64,000 nt of DNA from Deltaproteobacteria bacterium (GTDB lineage Bacteria; Bdellovibrionota_B; Oligoflexia; Oligoflexales; CAIYRB01). The stretch is from NCBI GenBank assembly GCA_016874735.1, contig VGTI01000003.1:124001-188000 (forward strand), read 5' to 3'. Both the position numbers and the translations under genes were made by a program. Within the stretch, counting starts at the first letter, position 1. Every line of letters starts with the position of its first letter. The notes beneath the pieces are model-generated. The model was given only the letters and a program-made list of their open reading frames with translations, searched no databases and was not told the origin of the DNA. Shown here in pieces: positions 36,791-64,000 of the stretch.

Positions 36791-37921
36791 TTAAACTCTC
36801 AGTGCGTCGAGATTTTTCAATGTTTTGCTGTTTGTGATCAGCTTCTTAGCTGCGTTTGCGCCTTTGCCCGCGCTGCTTTCAGTGCTTTTTACTTTAACAA
36901 CTAACTTATTTGCCGGTTGGCTTTTGGAAAGAGCGACTTTTGCCGCGTCACTTTTAAATTTGGTAAGTGCTGCTTGTACTGCTCCTCGCGGAACATAGTA
37001 GACGGTGGAGCCAGATTGAACTACGTCGGGGTCGTCAATGTTGTCGTTGTGACGCCAAATGGAGCGCCATCCTGAGGTTTCGCCGTAAACACGTTTTGAA
37101 ATCGTTGCGAGCGTGTCGCCCGGTTGTACTTGTTCTTCTGCACGCTGAACTGCGTCGTAAGCCTTTGCGAAAGCGAGTGCGCTGTCTTCGAGGGTGTAAT
37201 AGATCACGTCACCTGGGTAGATTTTGCTTGGATTTGCAAGTCCGCTGAGTGTGGCCATTTCTTGCCAGTGACTTGGCGCACCGTAAATCTTTTGCGAAAT
37301 TTTGGCGAGCGTGTCGCCTGGTTCAACGATGTAGGCCATCTTCGAGCCTAGCTCAGGAAGGCCGGCTGCTGCCGGAGATCCGCCTGGCTGCTGCGGCAGT
37401 GCCGTTGAAGCGGGTCCGGGTGCTGCTGCGGCTGGTGCCGCCGCTGGTGCAGCAGAAGCAGTTGAGTTGGCTGGTGCCGTTGTGGCGGCATCGCCTGCTG
37501 GCGCTGCTGCGGCGCCGTCGGCTGGTGCTGCTGCATCGCCGGTAGCGGCTTCGGCTGTAGCATTATCGCCAGCTGGTTGTTGGCCATTCATCTCAGTGAT
37601 GATGTCCTGTAAATCGTTTTCGCCAGAGCCTGAAGCTCCAGCGTTGGCAACTGCTTCCGCGTTTTCTCCGCCAGAAGCAGCATTGGCTGCCTCGGCGTCT
37701 GCGGATGCACCACCATCCTCCGCAGCAGCGTTGTTTCCACCGCTACCGTCGCCTTCTTCTCCAGCAGCGGCATCACCGCCACCAGATTCATCTGCGACCT
37801 GGTTCTCCGATCCTTCAACTGCTTCTTCAGTTCCCTGATCGCCGGAACAACCGACGATCCCGAAACTGAATGACAGCGCCAGGAGCGAAGCGCCAAGCCA
37901 GCGCCTCCCGAACATTCTCAT
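36791..37921 (-). CDS. LysM-domain lipoprotein
   Basis: 376 residues. A signal peptide ends in the lipobox IVGC (Cys25), so it is probably a lipoprotein. Residues ~28-190 are a low-complexity Ala/Gly/Pro/Asp/Glu linker. Two LysM domains follow, beginning about YIVEPGDTLAKISQKIYGA (near 198) and VQPGDTLATISKRVYGE (near 265). LysM binds N-acetylglucosamine in peptidoglycan. The C-terminal tail is Lys-rich. ATG 37921 has GGAGG six bases upstream. It is divergent from the membrane protein at 38226, with about 300 bases between. The role is probably structural anchoring of the envelope; no catalytic domain is present. Confidence 0.85.
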   Translation of the reverse strand: MRMFGRRWLGASLLALSFSFGIVGCSGDQGTEEAVEGSENQVADESGGGDAAAGEEGDGSGGNNAAAEDGGASADAEAANAASGGENAEAVANAGASGSGENDLQDIITEMNGQQPAGDNATAEAATGDAAAPADGAAAAPAGDAATTAPANSTASAAPAAAPAAAAPGPASTALPQQPGGSPAAAGLPELGSKMAYIVEPGDTLAKISQKIYGAPSHWQEMATLSGLANPSKIYPGDVIYYTLEDSALAFAKAYDAVQRAEEQVQPGDTLATISKRVYGETSGWRSIWRHNDNIDDPDVVQSGSTVYYVPRGAVQAALTKFKSDAAKVALSKSQPANKLVVKVKSTESSAGKGANAAKKLITNSKTLKNLDALRV

Positions 37922-61355: not shown

Positions 61356-62300
61356 TCAAAACCTATGTCCCATCAGCTTTAAGAGACGCTCCAATTCCGC
61401 GGCTGAGAAATAGGAAATTTCGATTTTTCCTCGGCTAGTACTACCGGCTACTCTTATTTTCGTATGGAGATAGTTACGTAGGCTTTCAGTGATGTACTGA
61501 AGGTCGGCTTCGTCCTTAATAGCCGCGGATTTTTGATCTGAAGTCTTTACGGGTGATTTTATGGACTTGCAAAGTTGTTCTGTTTGACGTACGCTTAGAG
61601 ACTTTTTGACTACGATGTCTCGGCATCTTAGCATAGTTTTTTTGTCGTCAAGGCTCAGTATTGCGCGGCCGTGCCCCATCGAGAGACGCGTACTGACGAT
61701 ATCCTCCTGAATCTCTCGGGGCAGCGTTAGCAACCGCAGGGCGTTTGTCACTGTGGACCGCTCTTTACCCACACGGTCAGCGCACTGTTCCTGGGTTAGT
61801 CCGTAATCCTTAATAAGGGCCGAGTACGCTTCAGCTTCTTCAAGTATGTTCAGATCGGCTCTTTGAATATTCTCGATCAAAGCAAGACGAAGCAAATCTG
61901 TGTTTGCGCCCTCACGAACGATGGCTGGTATCGTAGTAAGTCCCGCAAGTTTCGAGGCCCGAAGGCGCCTCTCGCCAGCCACTACATAATAACGGCCAGC
62001 TTGAGGTGCTTGAGTAACAACGATTGGCTGCAGTACTCCATCAATCTTTAGACTATCTGACAGTTCCTTCAGAGCTCTGTCATCGAAAAGTTTACGAGGT
62101 TGCTGAGGGTTCGGATCGATCTCCTCGACATTAAGGCGCACTACCTCCGCATCCAGCTTCCGCTTAAGTTTCTCGTCGGAAATCTTTGTTCCAACATTTG
62201 CTTCTTCTGAGTGGTCGTCGGACAAATCACCTAGAAGCGAAGAAATACCTTTGCCAAGAGCCCCACGCCTTGTGGAGGGCGCCTTTTCACGAGTAGTCAT
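61356..62300 (-). CDS. parB: Chromosome partitioning protein ParB (Spo0J)
   Basis: 314 residues. The N-terminal LGKGISSLLG is the ParA-stimulating motif. GERRLRAS at 109-116 is the CTP-binding GERR box, ENIQR at 143-147 follows, and a helix-turn-helix lies at about 168-190 (LTQEQCADRVGKERSTVTNAL). The C-terminal ~50 residues dimerise. ParB loads on parS sites and slides as a CTP clamp; four parS sites lie about 1 kb away beyond parA. It starts 10 bases after parA. Confidence 0.96.
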   Translation of the reverse strand: MTTREKAPSTRRGALGKGISSLLGDLSDDHSEEANVGTKISDEKLKRKLDAEVVRLNVEEIDPNPQQPRKLFDDRALKELSDSLKIDGVLQPIVVTQAPQAGRYYVVAGERRLRASKLAGLTTIPAIVREGANTDLLRLALIENIQRADLNILEEAEAYSALIKDYGLTQEQCADRVGKERSTVTNALRLLTLPREIQEDIVSTRLSMGHGRAILSLDDKKTMLRCRDIVVKKSLSVRQTEQLCKSIKSPVKTSDQKSAAIKDEADLQYITESLRNYLHTKIRVAGSTSRGKIEISYFSAAELERLLKLMGHRF

Positions 62301-62310
62301 TGTCTATACC

Positions 62311-63144
62311 TCAGCTATGATCAGTCATTTTCTGCTTAGTCATAGTCGATTTCTCAGCTTTCCCGCGGCTTGACGAAGGTGACTGATGTCGACGAATTAA
62401 TATTCGGGCAACTTCCATGTATGCAACAGCACCGGTGCTATTAATGTCATAAAGGATGACGGGCTTACCATGGGAAGGCGCCTCCGACAACTTGACGTTC
62501 CTTGGGATCACAACTGGGAACACCTCATGGCCAAAGTGTGCCCGAATATCCTGCTCAACCTGGTGCGAGAGATTATTGCGGCGATCGTACATCGTAAGCA
62601 ATATACCCTCCCGCTCTAGAGCTGGATTTAGACGCTTCTTTATCAGAGATACAGTTTTTACTAATTGGGATAGGCCTTCCATTGCGTAGTATTCACATTG
62701 GAGGGGAATGAGTACGGCATCAGCTGCAGTTAGGGCATTCACCGTTAGGATCCCAAGGGCGGGAGGGCAGTCTATGACGATAAAGTCATACAGACGCTGA
62801 ATGGGGGCCAAGGCCTCCTTCAATCTAACCTCTCTACCAATGGCCGATACAAGCTCTACTTCAGCCCCAACTAAGTCGGGCAATGAGGGAGCAATATCTA
62901 GGCATTTCAACTCGGTGTGTAATATCGCACTCGTTATGGGTACTTCATCGACCAAGACGTTGTACATGCTAACGTCAAAGTCCCCTTTATAGATTCCTAA
63001 ACCACTTCCAGCATTGGCCTGGGGATCCAGGTCGATGACCAGAACCTTTTTTTCGGCCGCTGCGAGGCATGCCGCAATATTAATTGCGGTGGTGGTCTTA
63101 CCCACGCCTCCCTTTTGATTGGAAACGGCGATTACACGCGCCAT
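62311..63144 (-). CDS. parA: Chromosome partitioning ATPase ParA (Soj)
   Basis: 277 residues, Soj size. The deviant Walker A NQKGGVGKTTTAIN begins near residue 9, with Lys11 and Lys16. IDLDPQANAGSGLG (switch region) and FIVIDCPPALG (Walker B) follow. The C-terminal ~25 residues are Ser/Lys-rich. ParA binds DNA as an ATP-dependent dimer and moves ParB-parS complexes. ATG 63144 has GGAG eight bases upstream. A promoter candidate lies 47-75 bases upstream, close to parS site 1, so ParB could regulate the operon. Confidence 0.96.
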   Translation of the reverse strand: MARVIAVSNQKGGVGKTTTAINIAACLAAAEKKVLVIDLDPQANAGSGLGIYKGDFDVSMYNVLVDEVPITSAILHTELKCLDIAPSLPDLVGAEVELVSAIGREVRLKEALAPIQRLYDFIVIDCPPALGILTVNALTAADAVLIPLQCEYYAMEGLSQLVKTVSLIKKRLNPALEREGILLTMYDRRNNLSHQVEQDIRAHFGHEVFPVVIPRNVKLSEAPSHGKPVILYDINSTGAVAYMEVARILIRRHQSPSSSRGKAEKSTMTKQKMTDHS

Positions 63145-63190
63145 GCGTATTACTCCAGTATCAAACTCGGATTGGAGAAAACAGGCGGTG

Positions 63191-63219
63191 ACTATAACAA
63201 CGACCTATTAATTTGAGAA
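63191..63219 (-). promoter_or_regulatory. Possible parA promoter
   Basis: On the minus strand TTCTCA (63219-63214) and TATAGT (63196-63191) are 17 bases apart, upstream of the parA ATG. parS site 1 lies 37 bases further upstream. The -35 is weak; the same pair precedes sdhC. Confidence 0.35.
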
Positions 63220-63255
63220 GGGCTTTACGACCTTTCAAGCGGCGTAACGAGTAAA

Positions 63256-63271
63256 TGTTTCACGTGGAACA
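63256..63271. other. parS site 1
   Basis: TGTTTCACGTGGAACA, the exact reverse complement of the Bacillus subtilis parS sequence TGTTCCACGTGAAACA. It lies 112 bases upstream of the parA start. Confidence 0.93.
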
Positions 63272-63309
63272 TTGATCCATTCAGCTAAATTTGGCCCGGC
63301 CAGGCAGAA

Positions 63310-63325
63310 TGTTTCACGTGGAACA
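63310..63325. other. parS site 2
   Basis: TGTTTCACGTGGAACA, identical to site 1 and 54 bases from it (start to start). Both are followed by TT. Confidence 0.93.
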
Positions 63326-63522
63326 TTATTTTTTCGGGAGAGGTTCCACCAGCCGGTTTAAGGGGAGTTTTTTAAGACCAGGCCTTACAAACCCTCATTA
63401 CTCGTCACCACAATTCGCGCTCAGCACGGAATCAGTAAAAAATGTGCTCGAAGAACAGTGATTCTCGGCCTCAATAGACCTAACATGCTGATATTATTGT
63501 ATTTTACAGGCTAGATTTTGAT

Positions 63523-63538
63523 TGTTTCACGTGGAACA
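63523..63538. other. parS site 3
   Basis: TGTTTCACGTGGAACA, identical to sites 1 and 2. It lies about 28 bases before the first repeat of the tandem array. Confidence 0.93.
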
Positions 63539-63566
63539 TTCGTTAAATCCGTAAACTGAGGGAACC

Positions 63567-63820
63567 GAAAACCACTTTTTTCCTGCAAAAACCACTTTTT
63601 TCCTGCAAAAACCACTTTTTTCCTGCAAAAACCACTTTTTTCCTGCAAAAACCACTTTTTTCCAGCAAAAACCACTTTTTTCCAGCAAAAACCACTTTTT
63701 TCCAGCAAAAACCACTTTTTTCCTGCAAAAACCACTTTTTTCCTGCAAAAACCACTTTTTTCCTGCAAAAACCACTTTTTTCCTGCAAAAACCACTTTTT
63801 TCCTGCAAAAACCACTTTCC
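63567..63820. repeat. Tandem array of a 20-bp A-tract/T-tract repeat, about 12.7 copies
   Basis: The unit TCCTGCAAAAACCACTTTTT repeats head to tail from 63581, preceded by a partial unit from 63567. Units begin at 63581, 601, 621, 641, 661, 681, 701, 721, 741, 761, 781 and 801. The three from 63661 to 63720 carry TCCAGC, the others TCCTGC, and the last ends in CC. Each unit has a five-A tract and a six-T tract about 10 bp apart. No stop codon occurs in any of six frames inside the array, so open frames there mean nothing by themselves. It sits between parS sites 3 and 4. Confidence 0.97.
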
Positions 63821-63859
63821 TTCTTACCAGCATTGCAAACATAAAATGCGTAACCCCAA

Positions 63860-63875
63860 TGTTTCACGTGAAACA
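63860..63875. other. parS site 4, perfect palindrome
   Basis: TGTTTCACGTGAAACA, a perfect 16-bp palindrome and an optimal parS sequence, unlike the three other copies, which have one asymmetric base. It lies 40 bases beyond the repeat array. Confidence 0.93.
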
Positions 63876-63902
63876 TAGGCCAATTTCACTGGACGCACCA
63901 AC

Positions 63903-64000
63903 ATGGGGCCGCTAGCGCTCATGAGTCTGGTGATTCACGACTTGCGATACTTTGGTGAAGAAAACTCGAAATACTCAGAGGTGACGGTTGGTCAGAATTG
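63903..64000 (+). other. Possible gene edge at the right end of the window
   Basis: The plus strand is open from ATG 63903 (or ATG 63921) to the window end, giving about 32 codons (26 from the second ATG). There is no clear ribosome-binding site. A minus-strand frame is also open from the edge to a TGA at 63919-63921. Neither is recognisable, so I only flag that a gene may begin or end here. Confidence 0.2.

Follow-up and report, generated by a model that had tools for sequence, protein, structure and literature searches.

Genetic organisation of the locus

The window analysed here is a 64,000 nucleotide stretch of DNA from the genome designated G000, the right-hand end of which carries a partition locus. 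The parB gene (61356–62300, minus strand) encoded a member of the ParB/Spo0J family (TIGR00180, 185.9 bits against a cut-off of 58.45) and parA (62311–63144, minus strand) encoded a Walker ATPase (MARVIAVSNQKGGVGKTT). parA was separated from atpE by an interval of 1,075 bp, in which four exact matches to parS were found on the plus strand of the window. parS 1 (63256–63271) and parS 2 (63310–63325) both read TGTTTCACGTGGAACA, parS 3 was located at 63523–63538 and parS 4 (TGTTTCACGTGAAACA) at 63860–63875; a fifth parS was present at the equivalent of position 64062, just beyond the window. Exact parS sites gave 8 strand matches in the window compared to 0.53 expected by chance.

dnaA, a cluster of six DnaA boxes and the GC-skew minimum were all found within ~4.3 kb of the repeat array described below, which identifies the locus as an origin-proximal centromere; parAB together with five parS sites near oriC are the components of a chromosomal ParABS centromere. 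The likely oriC is at 191913–192101 of the 237-kb contig (C3) of G000 (L009), where six DnaA-box matches lay between dnaA and dnaN, near the GC-skew minimum. This was the only DnaA-box cluster on C3 (191.9–192.1 kb, ~4.1 kb away), and none was found in the parA–atpE interval. The array was therefore rejected as a DNA-unwinding element of oriC, which would adjoin such a cluster. The genome also encoded ScpA.

The phased A-tract array

Analysis of the parA–atpE interval with TRF revealed 12.6 copies of a 20-bp unit, AAAACCACTTTTTTCCTGCA, between 63568 and 63818 (no strand assigned; period 20, 99% match), ~4 kb from oriC. In three consecutive units CCTGC was replaced by CCAGC. The array contained 25 A/T tracts with a spacing alternating between 9.5 and 10.5 bp, giving a best period of 10.00 bp (R 0.98). 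The repeat analysis and the tract count agreed with the initial annotation, which had described one A tract and one T tract per 20-bp unit and roughly 25 tracts over ~250 bp; its placement of the array outside any gene, between parS 3 and parS 4, also held, as the sites starting at 63523 and 63860 lie on either side. The background for the array was the 237-kb contig together with genome-wide pattern searches. A sequence search found the array only once in its genome, and when four T5 tracts in steps of 20 bp were used as a genome-wide search pattern, no second site was found in the 4.65 Mb. Elsewhere in the window, a minor 24-bp repeat (GCGGCACCGCCGGCTGGCGCTGCT, 2.1 copies) was present at 37485–37534.

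The unit contains no stop codon, and three minus-strand reading frames therefore continue through the array. The array was nevertheless rejected as protein-coding, as the longest open-frame product matched no NCBIfam family and the units of congeners contain stops. A structured RNA was rejected because no Rfam match was found within a 15-kb region, and a terminator or promoter because matches were at chance level and the atpE terminator falls outside the array. No match to plasmid or phage DNA was found, and a mobile, plasmid or phage origin was rejected.

The array was the most curved 125-bp window of the 237-kb contig under both wedge models used, which bears out the strong curvature predicted for it in the initial annotation. 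The ratio of end-to-end distance to contour length was 0.488, compared to a contig mean of 0.949 (SD 0.035) and 0.727 for the next best window, and the predicted curvature had a z of −6.7 against shuffles. All of these curvature figures are wedge-model predictions, and they are approximate because GA4T4C/GT4A4C was the only control for the wedge values. A model-free count of tract phasing also placed the array at the top of the contig (power 14.6, next 5.5). With tracts of at least 4 nucleotides at about the helical period and a predicted curvature well above background, the array has the characteristics of phased A-tract DNA. The tract period of C3 as a whole was ~11.4 bp, so the 10.0-bp period is not a property of the background.

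The helical repeat of DNA is 10.5 bp. Phased tracts had been expected to bend the array in one direction; as the shared period of 10.0 bp is shorter than the helical repeat, a left-handed coil is predicted instead of a flat, unidirectional bend. The wedge models predicted a left-handed superhelix of ~146–151 bp per turn with a radius of 6–7 nm, in which the array would make ~1.6 turns. The units of G001, G004 and G015 were likewise predicted to be left-handed. Model controls behaved as expected, a 10-bp period giving a left-handed and an 11-bp period a right-handed coil.

Arrays in congeneric genomes

The T5 pattern used for G000 above was searched for genome-wide in 43 genomes of the order. 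It matched five congeners, including the genome of the window, in each case solely at the parS locus; the only other matches were three stray T-rich places in other genera. These five were all of the congeners that have an intact parA–atpE locus. The array unit of G001 was GCTAATTAGCCTTTTTTTTC, and the array of G003 was related to it, while in the arrays of G002 and G005 A and T tracts alternated in a degenerate fashion. In G004, the nearest congener to G000 (ParA 97% and AtpE 99% identical), the assembly breaks at the locus and the contig encoding atpE ends within an array of 20-bp repeats whose unit, TTTTTGCGGGTTAAAAGTTG, is a different one. A 20-bp phased array was thus present in the same parA–atpE interval in six of six congeners, with at least four unrelated unit sequences. 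All of the genomes are either drafts or of unknown status; where short reads were used, the length of an array may be incorrect, and in two cases the assembly is interrupted within the array.

An alignment of G000 with G004 showed 78–83% identity in the flanks, whereas the parA–atpE interval could not be aligned apart from parS. The whole of this interval (63145–64000 of the window, continuing to the equivalent of 64216) evolves much faster than its flanks. The arrays of G002 and G005 differed at ~23% of bases, yet 160 bp aligned without an internal gap.

Phased tracts in other families and other bacteria

In G015, from another family, an exact 10-bp array, (AATTTTCAGC)n, was found at the facing ends of the atpE and parA contigs and nowhere else. 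The initial annotation had proposed that 20-bp arrays be sought beside parAB in relatives; they were found in the congeners, with the 10-bp array of G015 in addition. It had also considered that the array might be peculiar to a single assembly, against which stand the counterparts in all six congeners and in several other families. Four further genomes (G008, G021, G023 and G025) had non-repetitive yet phased tracts beside or between parS sites, with R(10.0) of 0.68–0.88. Tract periods were 9.75–10.05 bp in nine genomes, and 0–2 of 100 dinucleotide shuffles were as strong. The period in G025 was 10.75 bp over the whole interval and 9.6–9.84 bp in the block at parS. When stretches of ~6–15 kb were scanned, the best-phased 150-bp window was at parS in 11 of 17 loci with a period of 9.5–10.1 bp, while background windows scattered over 9–12 bp; counts across genomes are not independent because the genomes share ancestry. 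G016 had an alternating A7/T7 block downstream of parB, near a parS with one mismatch and with weak phasing at 10.0 bp (R 0.23). The interval of G007 was predicted to be strongly curved but was not phased beyond shuffles (19 of 100).

Phased tracts were absent at the ParABS loci of G013, G020, G022, G030 and G036, from families f6 and f8 of the same order, most of which had short intervals or tandem parS at 39–49 bp. Tandem parS arrays with as many as 12 or 13 copies at a period of 39–49 bp were observed upstream of parA at seven loci of families f6, f8 and f11 (L019, L020, L021, L022, L031, L032 and L036). Those of f6 and f8 seem to occupy the place of the phased A-tract arrays of other families. 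In the sister order, family f13 also had ParABS without a phased array. The array is therefore not required for ParABS, as f6, f8 and f13 have the system without it.

A general feature of bacterial parS was rejected, as 80 named loci of other lineages, about half of them with parS, had ordinary curvature near parS (0.75–0.96). Elsewhere among these 80, the curved exceptions were L094, from a genome of 24% GC, and L086, a Prevotella region without parS that lies immediately upstream of parA. No such array was found at the named Bdellovibrionales and Bacteriovorax loci (L063, L073 and L096), where the curvature minimum near parS was 0.80–0.82. G054 carried a perfect 20-bp T5 repeat, AAAAATATATTTTAGAAATT, of 5.5 copies (L223, C1:925940–926044) in a locus of ~27% GC that lacked a parS within 1.5 kb. 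A class-wide W5-phased pattern matched unspecifically in AT-rich genomes and was left out. Two contigs of G047, C193 and C41 (L222 and L210), look like eukaryote contamination, with 63–64% GC, a U-box-like protein and AT-rich repeats; the pattern matches in G047 fall on these contigs.

Discussion

The association of phased tracts with the parS locus is well supported. Arrays of unrelated letters had the same phase in the same place, with no copy elsewhere in the genus, which argues for selection on DNA shape. On this comparison of sequences the array is very probably a selected DNA-shape element of the chromosomal centromere. We infer that selection would maintain helical phase and not sequence, the unit itself turning over quickly in the manner of a satellite. 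The initial annotation had also suggested a link to segregation, which is likely, and putative roles in ParB spreading and condensin loading. Binding of a DnaA- or IHF-type protein, which it had offered as well, fits poorly with a unit sequence that lacks conservation, which speaks against a sequence-specific site of either type, and the parA–atpE interval has no DnaA-box cluster.

The array may act as a pre-coiled organiser of bend and writhe that brings parS-loaded ParB together, a mechanism to which we give a little under an even chance; a shape element and pre-coiling, taken together as the whole explanation, we consider evenly balanced. With a period of 10.0 bp, below the helical repeat of 10.5 bp, the 250-bp segment would be pre-coiled into ~1.6 left-handed turns, and the array would fix a bend and a plectoneme tip within the centromere. 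ParB clamps loaded at the flanking parS sites would then be drawn close together, which would lower the threshold for ParB–ParB bridging and condensate formation. The loading of SMC–ScpAB would perhaps be aided as well. About 70 bp of intrinsic curvature pins plectonemes (PMC6301789), ParB itself does not pin them, and with supercoiling ParB condenses at a more than 5-fold lower concentration (PMC11602141). ParB binding is promoted by the IHF bend in P1 parS (PMC5016525). One study, as it is cited within PMC11602141, reported that plasmid partition complexes were not strongly influenced by supercoiling.

The main rival to this mechanism is a shape-reading protein, for which the phased narrow minor grooves would form a docking platform. 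Such a nucleoid or lineage-specific factor (HU-, H-NS-, AT-hook- or GapR-like) would read the spacing of the tracts and not the bases, wrap the centromere and regulate the access of ParB, for example by cell-cycle stage. We regard this as rather unlikely, and phased tracts with changing spacers fit a protein of this kind as well as a role for bare DNA. In B. bacteriovorus, 242–330 bp around parS blocks ParB clustering in non-replicating cells via a Bdellovibrio-specific factor (PMC10547168), and among full-length named matches the AtpA of the window was closest to Bacteriovoracaceae, Oligoflexia and Bdellovibrionales (63–65%). However, the named Bdellovibrionales and Bacteriovorax loci are without the array, so the effect in B. 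bacteriovorus may be a separate phenomenon. That the array is a neutral satellite, made by slippage in a permissive AT-rich spacer and with an incidental 20-bp period, appears improbable. Unit duplication predicts that variant units should be neighbours, as the three CCAGC units of G000 are, the parA–atpE interval evolves fast, and the AT-rich genome G054 has tandem repeats of a 20-bp unit away from parS. Against slippage, however, several lineages share a 10- or 20-bp phase at this locus in units that are unrelated, the phase is retained in non-repetitive loci, the arrays of G002 and G005 lack internal gaps at such divergence and the genus genomes are without any other such array.

Curved DNA that stimulates transcription from the parAB promoter would account for an array upstream of parA, where it lies in most genomes, and promoter-upstream curvature does pin plectonemes in bacteria (PMC6301789). 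We consider such an activator quite improbable, since the distance to the parA start ranges from ~200 bp (G002 and G005) through 424 bp (G000) and 860 bp (G001) to >1400 bp (G015), the block of G016 is downstream of parB and the interval has no more promoter-like matches than chance would give. The repeats could also be iterons belonging to a second partition system, whose centromere-binding protein would recognise them by sequence; in plasmid parC/ParR, tandem repeats of this kind are wrapped on ParR in a helix ~15 nm wide (PMC5016525), near the predicted size of the coil here. An iteron unit would be conserved, whereas here it changes completely between congeners with ParA 97% and AtpE 99% identical (G000 and G004), which a sequence-specific binder would not tolerate. 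The interval also has no small DNA-binding gene and no similar DNA was found in plasmids or phages, and we consider iterons very improbable indeed.

Searches of the open-access literature gave no account of phased A-tract arrays next to a chromosomal parS. The P1 parS with its IHF site is alike in that a strong bend between ParB-binding sites promotes assembly of the partition complex (PMC5016525), and here parS sites at 63523 and 63860, identified in a search for parS palindromes, flank a predicted bend. However, IHF makes one bend at one site, whereas the bend predicted here is intrinsic, extends over 250 bp and is chromosomal. The type II parC of R1 and pSK41 also has tandem repeats beside par genes and a superhelix of similar diameter to that predicted here, but its repeats are sequence-specific ParR sites, whereas in the present genus the unit differs between sister species and parS is separate. 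Curved DNA upstream of promoters likewise localises supercoils through intrinsic curvature (PMC6301789); it is not tied to centromeres, has no long regular array and has no conserved place among parS sites. In B. bacteriovorus, a few hundred bp around parS matter beyond parS itself by excluding ParB (PMC10547168). There, however, no phased array is reported and the effect requires a factor, and the named relatives are not curved. Budding-yeast CDEII, which wraps a Cse4 nucleosome, resembles the array by analogy only, being rich in AT runs and fast-evolving with a conserved physical character between two protein-binding sites; unlike the array it is eukaryotic and is without helically phased tandem repeats.

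Bringing these points together, we tentatively propose a centromeric satellite DNA of this order that is defined by its phase (10.0 bp, left-handed writhe) rather than its letters and is flanked by parS. Its shape would be selected amid turnover between sister species, it would store or fix writhe and so nucleate the ParB complex, and in other families it would be replaced by tandem parS.

Descriptions of the bacterial centromere are normally limited to the parS motif. The comparative evidence suggests that selection also acts on the stretches from one parS site to the next, for their shape rather than their letters. Elements of this sort would be missed altogether by methods based on sequence alignment. 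The arrays also form naturally matched sets, equal in predicted shape and unrelated in sequence, that may be used for tests. If the interpretation is true, it would link assembly of the partition complex with the supercoiling and curvature of DNA, and would provide a bacterial parallel to the fast-evolving centromeric DNA of eukaryotes.
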